From NCBI RefSeq assembly GCF_019468465.1, contig NZ_CP080519.1, forward strand, positions 1 to 64,000: DNA of 64,000 nt, written 5' to 3'. This stretch comes from Amycolatopsis sp. DSM 110486 (GTDB taxonomy: Bacteria > Actinomycetota > Actinomycetes > Mycobacteriales > Pseudonocardiaceae). A program made the translations under genes and the position numbers. The notes beneath the pieces were generated by a model. The model saw only the letters and a program-made list of their open reading frames with translations. It made no database searches and was not told the DNA's origin. This document shows, piece after piece, positions 2,501 to 64,000 of the stretch (within the stretch, counting starts at the first letter, position 1; each line of letters begins with the position of its first letter).

Positions 2501-4003
2501 GTCCGGGGTGACGATGCTGATGCGGTTGGGGTCGAACACCCTCGGCGCGGACGGGTCGAGCGAGCTGACGACGAGCCACCGGCCGCGCAGCGCGCGGGCC
2601 AACAGCGCGCGACGCTCGGGCACAGTCGCGGCCTTCAACCGGGCACGCCACTCCTCGAGGGACTCGGCCGCCAGCTTCGGGGGCAGCTTCACCTCCGCGC
2701 TCTCCCCCAGCTCCACCAGCTGAGCACGCAACCGAGCGATCTTCTTGTCCAGAGGCGCCACGGCGGCGTCGTAGCGGGCCAAGCTCATTTCCTCGCGGCC
2801 GAGTCGTGCCGAGAGCTCGTTCGCCAGCTGCTCGGCGCGCGCCAGCTCGTCATGCACCAGCTGGCGCGCGTCGGCGGCCGCCTTGGTCGACGCCTCGATC
2901 GCAGCGGCGTGACGTGGGTCGGAGAGGATGACCGCGATCAGCTCAAGCACGTGGCCATCGAGCGCACGCTGATCGACGCTGATGCGGCCACAGCCCCCGG
3001 CATGGGCGCGTGGTTGGCACCAGTACTGCCGCCGCACCGTGCCGTCCGGGTATGGCGCCATGTTCTTCCGCGGACGGCCCGTGAGGGTGTGCTTGCACAC
3101 TCCGCAGTGGACGATCCCCGAACACAGGTAGGCCTCCGACGTCGGCCGGCCGCGGCGGCGCGACGAGTACAGCGAATGCAGGTCTTCCCACGTCCCCACA
3201 TCGAAGATCGGCTCGACGTCGACGAGCCGCTTCAACTCGCCGGGAACGTTCGGGTCCTCGCTGGGTTCGCGAAGCACTTCGTTTTGGTACACAGCGATTC
3301 CCGCGTTGCGTGGCCGCAACAGCAGTTGCCGAAGCGCTGTGCGCGTGAACGGCTTCCCGTTGACCGAGCGCAGCCCGGACCGGTTCCACTCGATCACGAT
3401 GGCGTCTTGCGACTGGAACGCGAGCACACGCTTGGCGGCGTCAGCGAGCGCGTCGGCTTCGGATTTACGGAGCGTCTTGTTGTCCTCGTTCCACCCGAAC
3501 GCTCTTTGGCTGTTGTTGGTCTCGCCCTTCAACGCCTTCAGCCGCTTGCCGCGCTTGGTCTTCGTCGAGGTGCGGTCGCTCTCGTAGGCAGCAGTGTTGA
3601 GCTGGTCCCGAAACGCCTTCTTCCCGCTCGGCGTGGTCAGGTCGTACTCGCCTTCCGAGTCGAGCACGAGCAGCCCGCGCTCGGCGGCGGAGATCAGCCG
3701 CTCGCCCTCGATCGGCCGGCGCGAGAACCGCGCCAGGTCGAACACGATCACGCCATCGCTGGCGCCGGTTTCCAGGCGCTGCATGAGTTCGTCCCAGTCG
3801 GGTCGCTTCACGCGTGGGTTCCACGCGCTCCGGCCGCGGTCGGCGTCGAGCACCTTGCCGACCTTCGCGCCGATGTCCACGAGACGGGCCTTGCAGTCGG
3901 CCACCTGCCCCTCAACCGAACGCTGCCGCTCGTCGCCGAGCCGACTCACCCTGGCGTAGACGTCGAGCACCAGGCCGTCACGCACCCGTTTCCTTGCCAC
4001 CAT
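2471..4003 (-). CDS. Large serine recombinase (element integrase)
   Basis: This 510-residue site-specific recombinase integrates or excises the element by double-strand breaks with a phosphoserine link. The resolvase domain covers residues 12-150 with the nucleophile region YARVS (Ser20) and the arginine-rich FDLARFSRR motif near residue 92. A recombinase domain follows, then a zinc ribbon with Cys294, Cys303, Cys329 and Cys338, then a coiled coil around 375-432, as in the large serine integrase family. I start at the ATG at 4003 because GGGAGG precedes it by 5 nt; an upstream in-frame start would run into the attachment region. The gene lies at the element boundary and reads into the element. 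Confidence 0.95.
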   Translation of the reverse strand: MVARKRVRDGLVLDVYARVSRLGDERQRSVEGQVADCKARLVDIGAKVGKVLDADRGRSAWNPRVKRPDWDELMQRLETGASDGVIVFDLARFSRRPIEGERLISAAERGLLVLDSEGEYDLTTPSGKKAFRDQLNTAAYESDRTSTKTKRGKRLKALKGETNNSQRAFGWNEDNKTLRKSEADALADAAKRVLAFQSQDAIVIEWNRSGLRSVNGKPFTRTALRQLLLRPRNAGIAVYQNEVLREPSEDPNVPGELKRLVDVEPIFDVGTWEDLHSLYSSRRRGRPTSEAYLCSGIVHCGVCKHTLTGRPRKNMAPYPDGTVRRQYWCQPRAHAGGCGRISVDQRALDGHVLELIAVILSDPRHAAAIEASTKAAADARQLVHDELARAEQLANELSARLGREEMSLARYDAAVAPLDKKIARLRAQLVELGESAEVKLPPKLAAESLEEWRARLKAATVPERRALLARALRGRWLVVSSLDPSAPRVFDPNRISIVTPDSAVDRSAGV

Positions 4004-4045
4004 GTACCCTCCCGTTCTAGGGTAACTTATAGCAGGTTTACCGGC
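4004..4045. other. Probable hybrid attachment site (element/chromosome junction)
   Basis: Leftward lies the recombinase start; rightward, from about 4037, the sequence reads in frame as the conserved TGVGNLYK core of a Fpg/Nei glycosylase. The switch from AT-richer element DNA to host coding sequence happens in these 42 bp. Large serine integrases usually sit next to their own att site. The exact core cannot be fixed without the other junction, which lies left of the window. Confidence 0.65.
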
Positions 4046-4357
4046 GTCGGCAACCTGTACAAAGTCGAGATCTGCCACCTGCTCAAGGTGTCACCGTGGA
4101 CGCCGGTGTCCGAAGTGGACACCAGGAAGGTCGTGGCGCTGGCCCGGAAGCTGCTGCTGGCCAACGCGTGGCGCCACGAGCAGGTGACCACCGGCGACCT
4201 CGGCCGCGGCCGGCGCAATTGGGTCTACGAGCGCACGCGCCAGGGCTGTTTCCGCTGCGGCGGCCGGGTCGAGGTCCACGACCAGGGCGAAGGCGTCCAC
4301 CGGCGGCCCACGTGGTTCTGCCCGCGCTGCCAGCCCGGTCCGCGCCCGGTGGACTGA
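4037..4357 (+). pseudogene. 3' fragment of a Fpg/Nei-type DNA glycosylase, split by the element
   Basis: These 106 codons encode the C-terminal part of an endonuclease VIII/formamidopyrimidine glycosylase. They begin at the conserved GVGNLYKVEI loop, continue with SPWTPV, and end with the zinc finger pair CFRC...CPRC near the C-terminus, preceded by the family's RNWVYERTRQG signature. The catalytic N-terminal proline and the beta-sandwich domain are absent: upstream is the integrase gene on the other strand. The 5' half should lie at the far end of the element, outside the window. The fragment has no start codon or RBS of its own. The function is probably lost while the element is integrated and restored on precise excision. 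Confidence 0.85.
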
Positions 4358-42522: not shown

Positions 42523-45076
<2,554 letters not shown>

Positions 45077-45099
45077 GGGTTCCTTACTCACGATGCCGT

Positions 45100-45136
45100 G
45101 AAGGCCTCCTCGCGCCGTTTCCGCGAGGAGGCCTTC
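45100..45136 (-). terminator. Hairpin between the pnp-side repeats and the peptidase gene
   Basis: The arms GAAGGCCTCCTCGCG (45100-45114) and CGCGAGGAGGCCTTC (45122-45136) form a perfect 15-bp stem with a 7-nt loop CCGTTTC. It lies 24 bp before the peptidase start on the leftward strand, and can end transcripts arriving from pnp, although no U-run is clear. Confidence 0.7.
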
Positions 45137-45146
45137 GACGGGAGAG

Positions 45147-45457
45147 CTGTGCTGATGAGCACCGATCCGGCCACAGCCACGGCGGGAACGGTCACCAGAC
45201 AGGGCAACGTCCAGTTGGGTACCCGCCTACTTTTGGCCGGATCGGTGATCACTGTGCTGATGAGCACCGGTCCGGCCACAGCCACGGCGGGAACGGTCAC
45301 CAGACAGGGCAACGTCCAGTTGGGTACCCGCCTACTTTTGGCCGGATCGGTGATCACTGTGCTGATGAGCACCGATCCGGCCACAGCCACGGCGGGAACG
45401 GTCACCAGACAGGGCAACGTCCAGTTCGGTACCCGCCTACTTTTGGCCGGATCGGTG
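45147..45457. repeat. Three near-identical 105-bp tandem repeats after pnp
   Basis: Units start at 45151, 45256 and 45361; the array with shared flanks spans 45147-45457. The copies differ at one base in unit 2 (GATCCGG becomes GGTCCGG) and one in unit 3 (GTTGGG becomes GTTCGG). Each unit has inverted 14-bp arms (CACCGATCCGGCCA, TGGCCGGATCGGTG; unit 1 at 45160-45173 and 45234-45247; in unit 2 the left arm has one change). The length is a multiple of 3, so all three units stay open in frame on both strands (35 residues per unit). Confidence 0.95.
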
Positions 45458-45479
45458 CTGCTTTCCTCCAGACCGTGCC

Positions 45480-47729
45480 TTACTTGGCTTCGGCGTTCTC
45501 CGCGTCAGCGTTGTCGGCGCCCTCGGCCGGGGCCGCGTCCTCTTCCTTGACCACGATCAGGCTGATCTTGCCGCGGTTGTCGATGTCGGCGATCTCGACG
45601 CGGAGCTTGTCGCCCACGTTGACCACGTCCTCGACCTTGGCGATCCGCTTGCCGTTGCCCAGCTTCGAGATGTGGACGAGCCCATCCTTGCCCGGCAGCA
45701 GCGAGACGAACGCGCCGAACGCGGCCGTCTTCACCACGGTGCCGAGGAAGCGCTCGCCGACCTTCGGCAGCTGCGGGTTGGCGATGGCGTTGATCATGTC
45801 GATCGCCGACTCGGCCGACGGGCCATCGGCCGCGCCCACGTAGATCGTGCCGTCGTCCTCGATGGAGATGTCGGCACCGGTCTGCTCGGTGATCGAGTTG
45901 ATCATCTTGCCCTTCGGGCCGATGACCTCGCCGATCTTGTCCACCGGGATCTTCACGCTGGTGACGCGCGGGGCGAACGGGCTCATCTCGTCCGGGCCGT
46001 CGATCGCCTCGGCGATGACCTCCAGGATGGTGAGACGAGCGTCCTTCGCCTGCTTCAGCGCGGCCGCGAGGACCTCCGACGGGATGCCGTCGAGCTTCGT
46101 GTCGAGCTGCAGCGCGGTGATGATGTCCTTGGTGCCGGCGACCTTGAAGTCCATGTCGCCCATGGCGTCCTCGGCACCGAGGATGTCGGTCAGCGCGACG
46201 TAGCGCGTCTCGCCGTCGACCTCGTCCGAGATCAGGCCCATCGCGATGCCCGCGACCGGCGCCTTCAGCGGCACGCCGGCGTTGTACAGACCCATGGTGG
46301 ACGCGCAGACCGAGCCCATCGAGGTCGAGCCGTTGGAGCCCAGCGCCTCGGAGACCTGGCGGATCGCGTACGGGAACTCGTCCCGCTTCGGCAGCACCGG
46401 CACGAGGGCGCGCTCGGCGAGCATGCCGTGGCCGATCTCGCGCCGCTTCGGCGAACCGACGCGGCCGGTCTCACCGGTGGAGAACGGCGGGAAGTTGTAG
46501 TGGTGCATGTAGCGCTTGTGCGTCTCCGGGGACAGCGAGTCGATCTGCTGCTCCAGGCGAAGCATGTTCAGCGTGGTGACGCCCAGGATCTGCGTTTCTC
46601 CACGCTCAAAGAGTGCCGAACCGTGCGCCCGCGGGATCACGGCGACCTCGGCCGCGAGCGACCGGATGTCGGTGAGGCCACGGCCGTCCATGCGGATCTT
46701 GTCCGTGAGGACGCGCTTGCGCATGACCTTCTTGGACAGCGCCTTGAACGCGGCGCCGATCTCCTTCTCGCGGCCCTCGAAGGCTTCGCCCTCGCCGATG
46801 CCGACCTTCTCCAGCACCGCGGCCTTGACCTGGTCGGTCGCGGCGTCGCGGTCCTGCTTGCCGGCGATCTGGAGCGCGTTCGCCAGATCGTCGGTCGCGA
46901 TCGCGGCGACGGCGTCGAAGGCGTCCTGCTCGTAGGCCAGGAAGACCGGGAACTCGCCGGTCGGCTTGGCGGCGACGTCGGCCAGCTTCTGCTGGGCCTC
47001 GCACAGCACCTTGATGAACGGCTTGGCGGCCTCGAGGCCCTCGGCGACCGAGACCTCGTCCGGCGCCTTGCCGCCGTCGGCGATCAGGTCGAGCGTGTTC
47101 TCGGTGCCCTCGGCCTCGACCATCATGATCGCGACGTCGTCACCGACGATGCGACCGGCGACGACCATGTTGAAGGTCGCCTTCGCGAGCTGCGACCAGG
47201 TCGGGAACGCGACCCACTGGTCCTCGATCAGGGCGACGCGGACGCCGCCGACCGGGCCCGAGAACGGCAGGCCGGCGATCTGGGTCGACGCCGATGCGGC
47301 ATTGATGGCCAGCACGTCGTAGGGGTCGTCCGGGTTGAGGCTCTGGACGGTGATGACGACCTGGATCTCATTGCGGAGACCGTCGGTGAACGACGGGCGC
47401 AGCGGCCGGTCGATCAGGCGGCAGGTCAGGATCGCGTCGGTCGAGGGACGGCCCTCGCGGCGGAAGAACGCGCCGGGGATGCGGCCGGCCGCGTACATGC
47501 GCTCCTCGACGTCCACCGTCAGCGGGAAGAAGTCGAAGTGGTCCTTCGGGTGCTTCGACGCCGTGGTGGCCGAGAGCAGCATGGTCTCTTCGTCGAGGTA
47601 CGCGACGACGGAGCCGGCGGCCTGCTTGGCCAGGCGGCCCGTCTCGAAACGCACGGTGCGGGTGCCGAACCGGCCGTTGTCGATCACGGCTTCGGTCTCG
47701 TGCACGGTGACTCCGGTGGAGTCGGTCAT
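45480..47729 (-). CDS. pnp: Polyribonucleotide nucleotidyltransferase
   Basis: This PNPase degrades RNA 3' to 5' by phosphorolysis and can also polymerise. The 749 residues hold two RNase PH domains, a helical linker, a KH domain ([20 protein letters not shown]) and an S1 domain ([20 protein letters not shown]) with an acidic Ala-rich tail. Signature blocks [20 protein letters not shown] and [19 protein letters not shown] are visible. The ATG at 47729 has GAGGAG upstream; further in-frame ATGs are absent. It lies behind rpsO, the usual rpsO-pnp pair. Confidence 0.97.
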
Positions 47730-61002: not shown

Positions 61003-64000
61003 TTACGCACGGGGCTTCTCCCGCTGTTCGTAGGTCTCGATCACGTCGTCGACCTTGATGTCACTGTACGAACCCAGCGTCAGACCACATTCGTACCCTT
61101 CACGAACCTCGACCACGTCGTCCTTGAACCGCCGCAGCGAGCTGATCGGCAGGTTCTCGGCGATGACGGTGCCATCGCGGAGAAGGCGCGCCTTGGCGTT
61201 GCGCCGGATCTCCCCGGACATGACCAGGCAACCCGCGATCGTGCCGATCTTGGAGGACTTGAAGACGTCGCGGACCTCGGCGCGACCGAGCTCCACCTCT
61301 TCGAACTCCGGCTTGAGCATGCCCTTGAGGGCCTGCTCGATCTCGTCGATCGCCTGGTAGATGACCGTGTAGTACCGGACGTCGACGCCCTCGCGGGTGG
61401 CCCGCTCGGTCGCCTTGCCCTGGGCCCGGACGTTGAACCCGAGCACGATCGCGTCGGACGCGGTCGCCAGGTCGATGTCCGACTCGGTCACGCCACCGAC
61501 ACCGCGGTGCACCACGTTCAGCTCGACGTCGTCGCCGACGTCCAGCTGCAGCAGTGCCGCCTCGAGCGCTTCGACGGTACCCGAGTTGTCACCCTTGATG
61601 ATCAGGTTGAGGCTGCTCGTCTCCTTCAAGGCGGAGTCGAGGTCCTCGAGGCTGACCCGCTTGCGGCGCGACGCGTTGAGCGCGTTGCGGGTGCGAGCGG
61701 AGCGGCGCTCGGCGATCTGCCGGGCGACGCGGTCCTCGTCGACCACCAGGAAGGTGTCGCCCGCGCCCGGCACCGAGGTGAACCCGATGACCTGGACGGG
61801 ACGCGAGGGCAGCGCCTCGGTGACGTCCACGTTGTGCTCGTCCACCATGCGGCGGACGCGGCCGTAGGCGTCGCCCGCGACGACGGAGTCGCCGACGCGC
61901 AGCGTGCCTCGCTGCACCAGCACCGTGGCCACCGGGCCGCGGCCGCGGTCGAGGTGCGCCTCGATCGCGACACCCTGGGCCTCCATGTCCGGGTTGGCCC
62001 GGAGGTCCAGAGCGGCGTCGGCCGTCAGCAGGATCGCCTCGAGGAGGCCATCGATGTTGATGTTCTCCCGCGCGGAGATGTCCACGAACATCGTGTCGCC
62101 GCCGTACTCCTCGGCCACGAGGTTGTACTCGGTGAGCTGCTGGCGGATCTTCTGCGGGTTGGCGCCTTCCTTGTCGATCTTGTTGACCGCGACCACGATC
62201 GGGGCCTTGGCGGCCTGCGCGTGGTTGATCGCCTCGACCGTCTGCGGCATGACCCCGTCGTCGGCGGCCACCACGATCACCGCGATGTCCGTCGAGTTCG
62301 CACCACGAGCACGCATGGCGGTGAACGCCTCGTGACCCGGGGTGTCGATGAAGGTGATCAGCCGCGGCGTGCCCTCGAGCTCGGTCTCGATCTGGTAGGC
62401 GCCGATGTGCTGGGTGATGCCACCGGCTTCACTCTCGCGCACCTTCGTCTTCCGGATCGTGTCCAGCAGGCGGGTCTTACCGTGGTCGACGTGACCCATG
62501 ATCGTCACGACCGGCGGCCGGACCTGCAGGTCCTCCTCGCCACCCTCGTCCTCACCGTAGGTGATGTCGAAGGTCTCCAGCAGCTCGCGGTCCTCCTCCT
62601 CGGGGGACACGACCTGGACGACGTAGTTCATCTCGCCGCCGAGCAGCTCGAGGATGTCGTCGGACACGGACTGCGTCGCCGTGACCATCTCGCCGAGGTG
62701 GAAGAGCACCTGCACCAGCGAAGCCGGGTTGGCGTCGATCTTCTCGGCGAAGTCGGTCAGCGAGGCACCACGCGGCAGCCGGATCGTCTCGCCCTGGCCC
62801 TTGGGCAGGCGGACGCCGCCGACGCTGGGCGCCTGCATGTTGTCCATGTACTCCTGGCGCTTCTGTCGCTTCGACTTGCGACCCTTGCGCGAGGGACCAC
62901 CGGGACGCCCGAAGGCACCCGCGGTACCGCCACGGCCACCGGGGCCGCCACGACCGCCGCCGCCACCGCGGAAGCCACCGCCACCGCCGGCAGGAGCACC
63001 GGTGCCGCCACCGGGACGGAAGCCGCCGCCACCGCCACCGGGACCGCCACCGGGACCGCCGCGGAAGCCACCGCCACCGCCGCCACCACCGGGACGGAAG
63101 CCGCCGCCACCGCCGCCGCCACCGGGACGACCGCCGCCACCACCGGGACCGCCACGGGCACCGCCACCGGGACCACCACGGGCGCCACCGCCCGGACCGG
63201 CCGGACGCGGGGTGCGGCCCGGCATCATGCCGGGGTTCGGCCGCGGGGGCATGTTGCCCGGGCTCGGCCGATTGCCACCGGCGCCACCGCCGGGACGCGG
63301 CGCGGGCCGGTCACCGCCGCCACCGGCACCGCCGGGACGCGGCGGACGGTTGTCGCCGCCCTGACCCGGACCGGGGCGCTGGGCCGGCGGACGCGGGGCC
63401 GGGGCGCCGGAACCGACGCCGAACGGGTTGTTGCCGACGCGCGGAGTGCGCGGGCCGGGCTTGGGACCGCCGGGCTTGGGGCCCTGCGGCTTCGGCGGCA
63501 CGACCGAGCCGGACGCAGCAGCGTCCTGCTTCGGCGCGTGCTTCGGCGCCGCGGTGCTGCCACCGGACGGCTCGGCCTTGGCCGCGGGGGCCTGCACCTG
63601 GGGCTGCGGTTCCTGCTGCGGCTGGGCCGGAGCAGGCGTGGCCGGGCGCGGGCCGGGACGCGGGCCCGGACCCGGGCGGCTGCCCGGGGTGGCCGGACGC
63701 GGGCCGGACTGCTGCGGAGCGGCGGACGGAGCGGCCTTGGCCGCCGGCGCCTGCTGCTGGGTCTGCTGCGGAGCGGGCGCGGCCGCGGGCCGGGGAGCCT
63801 GCGGAGCGGGAGCGGCAGCGTTCGAGTTGCCCGAGCCGGGGGCGGGCGGCATGGGCCGCGGGCCGGGCGTCGGACCGGACTTCTTCCCGCCCTTGGCGGG
63901 GTACGCGTCACGCAGACGGCGGGCGACGGGCGCCTCGACCGTGGATGACGCGGACTTCACGAACTCGCCCTGCTCCTTGAGCTTGGCGAGAACTTCCTTG
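61003..64000 (-). CDS. infB: Translation initiation factor IF-2, start beyond the window
   Basis: This GTPase brings initiator tRNA to the 30S subunit. The frame is open to the window edge; the visible 5' end reads [14 protein letters not shown], normally about 20 residues from the start. A Pro/Ala/Gln-rich linker (about 30-200) and a very Gly-rich region ([17 protein letters not shown] runs, positions 62900-63300) precede the G domain with [16 protein letters not shown] and NKID. Two beta barrels and the C2 domain follow. The long disordered linker is typical of actinobacteria. DUF503 and rbfA follow. Confidence 0.97.

Follow-up and report, generated by a model that had tools for sequence, protein, structure and literature searches.

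The closest described counterparts of the array reported here are short repeated DNA elements of several kinds. ERIC, Correia (NEMIS) and RUP elements are shorter than 200 bp and non-autonomous, form a long stem-loop, occur in many intergenic copies and have TA ends together with a TA duplication (according to the available portions of PMC2229807 and PMC2759123). The REP palindromes measure 20-50 nt (available portion of PMC8266576), the MIRU/VNTR of mycobacteria are intergenic and can occur as tandem arrays whose copy number changes (available portion of PMC4128351), and the PATE, which are of the IS200/IS605 type, are short, gene-less, palindrome-bearing and often moved in trans (available portion of PMC7290912).

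The window, i.e., the whole stretch of 64,000 nucleotides from Amycolatopsis sp. DSM 110486 that was analyzed, contains between two minus-strand genes an array that is probably a tandem cluster of a recently mobile, non-autonomous hairpin element of ~103 bp. The upstream gene (45480..47729, stop at 45480, longest open frame extending to 47966) is presumably pnp (polynucleotide phosphorylase), and the downstream gene (43712..45091, with a likelier ATG start at 45076-45074 behind AAGGA) presumably encodes a pepR-like M16-type zinc peptidase; the closest match to the peptidase locus was found in A. saalfeldensis (93% identity). The array, also on the minus strand, consists of three tandem units of 105 nt each: copy 1 on the pnp side (45357..45461, model match 45351-45459), copy 2 (45252..45356, model match 45246-45354) and copy 3 on the peptidase side (45147..45251, model match 45141-45249). 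Identity to the first 105-nt unit was 99% for the second and 96% for the third, which bears out the three near-identical units after pnp reported by the initial annotation and is consistent with recent tandem duplication. Its 14-bp inverted arms are real and were understated in length (18 nt long with 94% identity, or 16 nt long with 100%). The array had a Tandem Repeats Finder score of 608, the runner-up array in the window scoring 116, and the fold of the 388-nt intergenic strand reached -221 kcal/mol (z = -9.4; equally stable shuffles 0/100). Elsewhere in the window (62926-63190) imperfect GC-rich tandem repeats of short period were seen, perhaps a low-complexity coding stretch.

The 15-bp hairpin in which the array was said to end does exist (45100..45136, minus strand) and adjoins the peptidase gene; it is separate from the array and older, as it is also present in congeners that have no array. 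Its sequence varies among the congeneric loci read while its pairing, judged by eye, is kept, and it has the appearance of a conserved attenuator or terminator located in the pnp-peptidase gap. The array itself was found in none of the 29 other congeneric pnp-peptidase gaps read (30 loci including our own), two of which (L110, L116) have masked bases in or beside the gap. The array most likely arose when one element inserted between pnp and this older hairpin and was then duplicated in tandem in our strain's lineage. Four of the 29 congeneric gaps (L101, L103, L107, L119) carry another palindromic insert, CGTGAGTG..CACTCACG, inside the pre-peptidase hairpin, possibly representing a further family of mobile hairpins.

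The initial annotation had proposed a genome search for further copies of the unit. A DNA search of the strain's own genome (10.98 Mb, two contigs) returned 24 places, and 28 copies were aligned for constructing a covariance model; the search with this model gave 54 rows corresponding to 52 distinct copies (two rows were reverse-strand readings) at 47 loci once tandem copies were merged. Tandem loci were the window (three copies), 3320935 (three) and 4954450 (two). The near-identity of the window units would also be expected from an assembly or gene-conversion artefact restricted to the pnp locus. The existence of the other two tandem loci and the private substitutions in individual units, which argue against a simple copying error of the assembly, make such an artefact extremely improbable. 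With respect to position, 45 of the 52 copies are found in the initial 6 Mb of contig C1, which is 10.96 Mb long. A second dispersed repeat, a GC-rich hairpin of ~120 bp, was noticed at 1595844-1595964 of the same contig (L153:15345-15465), with at least 15 and at least 7 matches among those listed for the congeneric genomes G046 and G078, respectively.

Estimated copy length ranges from 95 to 106 nt (102-105 nt in 49 of the 52 copies), and a length that is a multiple of three is therefore not a feature of the family. This property and the open frames on both strands, both pointed out previously, hold for the units of the array; in the family as a whole 38/52 copies have an open frame of some phase on each strand. 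The consensus, written in the orientation of pnp (minus strand), reads TA / CYRATCCGRCC - RAAGTA - GGCSG..variable loop..CSGCC - GTGRCTGT - GGYCGGATYRG - TAAC - NANCRGCACAG / TA. Residues that are near-invariant (RAAG, GTGRCTGT, CACAG) lie in or beside internal loops and in the tail, and there are two sequence types of the element, differing in inner stem and loop. With genes called by a simple codon-usage method that had been trained on the window, the median overlap of the element with coding sequence was 0, with values above 0.3 at 2/47 loci (at one of these, 4956466, because the call for the downstream gene runs across the element), and the flanks were at the median 89% coding. With regard to the adjacent genes the 47 loci are co-directional in the same (17) or the opposite (12) orientation, divergent (12) or convergent (6).

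MIRU are defined by their position within operons and their co-directionality with the genes. The likeness to in-operon repeats of varying copy number that the initial annotation saw stands insofar as the element is interspersed, mostly intergenic and changes in copy number at 4954450; it fails for the operon placement, because divergent and convergent loci occur as well. This placement misfits the definition of MIRU, and the hairpin and the TA insertion point elsewhere, so identity with MIRU was not confirmed. A regulatory role, in which copy number would tune the mRNA stability of pnp and the peptidase gene and PNPase would feed back on its own transcript, could draw on the long stable hairpins that the transcript would carry and on the difference in copy number at another locus (4954450). 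It is nevertheless very unlikely, and the proposed feedback loop finds no confirmation, given that the array is missing from 29/29 other congeneric gaps read and that the family is scattered next to unrelated genes, whatever their orientation. The array is a local tandem cluster of a dispersed mobile hairpin and not a pnp-specific device, and whatever influence it has on the two adjacent genes would be incidental or near-neutral.

The ends of the element were read from conservation, of which none strong is seen upstream of NTTA and which downstream stops after CACAG. The two ends are unlike (left CYRATCCG, right as reverse complement CTGTGCYG), and the inverted repeat, which on one side includes 3-4 bases of the host, stops 12 nt short of the right end. 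TA precedes the left end at 34/47 loci, follows the outer right end at 25/47 and is found at both ends of 21 of the 44 single-copy loci, the background frequency of TA in the window being 0.0078 per position.

Empty sites were examined mainly in G046, whose flanks are 86-98% identical to those of our strain (mostly above 91%); the stretches were placed by rough synteny or taken from earlier element searches. Three clean empty sites were found there: 1783888 (GTTACGTG becoming GTTA[C..CACAG]TACGTG), 4956466 (GTTAGCC becoming GTTA[C..CACAG]TAGCT) and 994391 (GTTAAGG becoming GTTA[C..CACAG]TTAAGG, with TTA rather than TA on both sides). A fourth, 1793864, is empty in G078 and occupied in G046 (ATTACGCTG becoming ATTA[C..CACAG]TACGCTG). 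At 1581195 (CTA), 1399484 (TTA) and 1969114 (CTA) TA is present in G046 and the element ends are altered in our strain. Altogether TA, mostly as TTA, stands at the junction in 7/11 empty loci (10 empty in G046, one in G078), and in the other four (pnp, 1590610, 1597885, 2663412) the junction in G046 now lacks TA. A TA that is part of the element's end and one arising by target duplication are not fully distinguishable, and a case in G315 could be read as a longer duplication. In three instances (994391, 1399484, 4956466) insertion hit the upstream gene's stop codon, changing TAA or TAG to TAC and supplying a TAA or TGA one codon later, and at 1581195 TAG is replaced by six more codons up to the TAG inside AAGTAGG; as TA is rare in this GC-rich genome, stop codons are natural targets.

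Seventeen loci were located in G046, 10 of them empty and 7 occupied; since five of the occupied ones (2069882, 2240910, 3882227, 5385699, 7263874) had been chosen via an element match, the tally without these match-led loci is 10 empty and 2 occupied. The copies at 712437, 863852, 1472319 and 1509803 were sought in G046 and not located, and the remaining loci of the 47 were not deliberately sought. Gain is polarized by a third species only at 1793864 (G078 empty) and 1581195 (G046 and G078 both empty). Locus 1597885 is occupied in the more distant G078 and empty in the nearer G046. This pattern requires that loss, precise excision or a second insertion be considered, and emptiness in G046 is therefore not by itself proof of gain in our strain. 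Tandem copy number also differs between species: 4954450 has two copies in our strain and one each in G046 and G078. In L312 (G315:C26:8000-16000) two identical copies (3832-3940 and 4002-4110) lie in a tandem duplication of 170 bp that extends into flanking DNA, an arrangement suggesting that ordinary duplication can give rise to arrays.

The stem shows strong co-variation. In an alignment of 96 matches (95 distinct; rows from 90 sources, not covering every locus) both sides change in 13/24 pairs, with 167 co-varying cells compared to 61 in shuffles (0/500 shuffles reached 167); slid controls for the stem pairing were 14-49% paired. The alignment was fitted to the model and is hence biased towards the structure; it does not include the middle window copy and retains one reverse-strand self-match (L016, last row). 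Three of the co-varying pairs join the host TTA to the TAA of the element, and a fourth host base varies with its partner in some copies. As host bases could not have co-evolved with the element before insertion, either targets are chosen by pairing or the arms are corrected later. The second possibility is favored by 1581195, where G046 and G078 read GCTA and our strain reads GTTA opposite TAAC. Changes of several bases or transversions in paired positions separate copies at one place, namely 1597885 in our strain and in G078, where the two copies are perhaps separate insertions, and L139 and L143; multi-base paired changes of this kind have been reported to result from template switching (available portion of PMC8794818).

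Co-variation and the near-invariant RAAG, GTGRCTGT and CACAG would also fit a structured RNA (sRNA, attenuator or riboswitch-like) that is kept for a function at the RNA level. We did not take the co-variation as proof of RNA function, and set selection on RNA aside as its cause in view of the co-varying host bases and the multi-base paired changes. Rfam models returned nothing near threshold for 44900-45700 (best hit 19.9 bits to a miRNA family with a gathering score of 82), and membership of a curated Rfam family was rejected for that interval. Most of the loci compared are not common to G046 and the orientation to genes is variable, and some of the paired changes are multi-base or transversions as produced by template switching, all of which renders an RNA-level function distinctly improbable. 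The co-variation of the arms instead points to correction of a DNA hairpin by template switching, which explains it better than a functional RNA does.

In the preferred reading, a mobile DNA hairpin, insertion takes place mostly at TA, usually TTA, with TA present on both sides afterwards and the host bases NTTA completing one arm of the stem. A transposase would presumably move the element in trans, template switching during replication after insertion would keep the arms complementary, and single copies sometimes turn into tandem arrays, as at pnp.

Two transposase families, Y1 and IS630-type, were searched for in the strain's own genome as potential helpers. The Y1 model (PF01797) had no matches there (as a control, it matched in 5/14 genomes), and a RAYT/Y1 helper was rejected on this ground. 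Nine IS630-type genes (PF13358) were found, and eight of them belong to elements that likewise use TA, as part of CTAG, but have GTGT.. ends; an IS630 helper was rejected for these eight because their ends are unlike those of the hairpin, the ninth (L295) leaving no end comparison. No recurrent gene was seen beside the copies in 111 stretches with 395 called proteins, the 25 largest clusters consisting of genes next to a single array, of genes at orthologous loci or of widespread gene families that are unrelated. Searching for the arms with up to three mismatches counted 440 places, of which ~100 were listed; all listed matches with zero or one mismatch lie in known copies, except for a lone arm at 535187, and a full-length transposon with the same arms was accordingly rejected among them. 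Either a helper is absent here, or it has unlike ends of its own, or it belongs to a family outside this search.

These results also bear on the idea that the element is a single-strand DNA element of the HUH (IS200-IS605) or REP type, with its TTA target chosen by pairing with the TAAC at the foot of the hairpin. The hairpin with internal loops, the pairing of the target NTTA with TAAC, the internal GTAG-like motif, and the complementarity of the right-end CACAG to the stem CTGTG (95.5% of cells paired) would agree with it. However, no Y1_Tnp domain was found in the genome, TA flanks the element on both sides, in contrast to IS200/IS605 elements, which insert without duplication (available portion of PMC7290912), GTAG is often GCAG, and the CACAG-CTGTG pairing, a potential pseudoknot, carries no co-variation signal, and we regard this alternative as unlikely. 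Elements of the IS200/IS605 type insert 3' of a tetra- or pentanucleotide; the targets here are often TTA. A more speculative and rather doubtful variant is insertion guided by pairing with a recombinase outside Y1/RAYT and IS630, in which TAAC would read the target NTTA, the stem CTGTG would read the element's own CACAG end, host bases would form one strand of the stem, and the in-frame stops near the left end would allow landing in stop codons without loss of the gene.

The mobile element is not confined to a single species. Matches were obtained in 44/80 Amycolatopsis genomes (own included), and in a set of 40 relatives in 11 (own included) and in 0/16 from other genera. An even draw across the family gave matches in at least 33/346 genomes and at least 4/46 genera, these counts being lower bounds because filtering was stricter and 11 candidates were scored for each genome; they comprised Amycolatopsis with 24 genomes, the genus g42 with seven (strong scores), and two further genera with one weak match each. 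The element is present in a second genus of the family, g42. Neither 72,556 plasmid records nor 50,697 phage records matched a single-copy query, and carriage by plasmids or phages was rejected for these records.

Compared to the described systems, the element resembles ERIC, NEMIS and RUP in being shorter than 200 bp, gene-less and hairpin-forming, with many intergenic copies and TA flanks, a comparison made with their descriptions and not by sequence. It differs from them in having no terminal inverted repeats and a one-sided 12-nt tail, from the described A+T-richness of this class in being GC-rich and actinobacterial, and from RUP, for which IS630-Spn1 is the proposed helper, in having no known helper. 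Its two ends not being inverted repeats of each other also separates it from ordinary miniature transposons. Lacking terminal inverted repeats, it is to be placed as an ERIC/NEMIS/RUP-like variant rather than as a member of a named family. With REP and its TnpA-REP (RAYT) the element shares many intergenic hairpins and a GTAG-like motif beside an inner GC hairpin; membership was rejected based on its length (~103 nt), the variable and internal GTAG (often GCAG) and the absence of a Y1 transposase from the genome. As in MIRU/VNTR, it is intergenic and capable of tandem arrays with changing copy number, and it is set apart from MIRU, compared by description, by its hairpin architecture, its TA insertion and its 12 divergent and 6 convergent among 47 loci. 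It is short, gene-less and palindromic like PATE, yet has TA on both sides and no Y1 helper was found in the strain's own genome. No description of such a repeat in Amycolatopsis was found among the best-listed titles and abstracts, which is weak evidence as subscription literature is mostly uncovered, and the actinobacterial terms sought were absent from the available portions of PMC10969869 and PMC3733652.

The many empty sites between sister species make the ends, the target rule and the rate of spread measurable, and the loci may be usable as strain markers in Amycolatopsis. The element is also a warning case, in that stem co-variation, the usual proof of a functional RNA, here reaches into the target bases of the host. 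It appears to represent an undescribed family of a generally known type, and extends to the actinobacteria the range of small mobile hairpins, whose best-known examples come from enterobacteria, Neisseria and pneumococcus.
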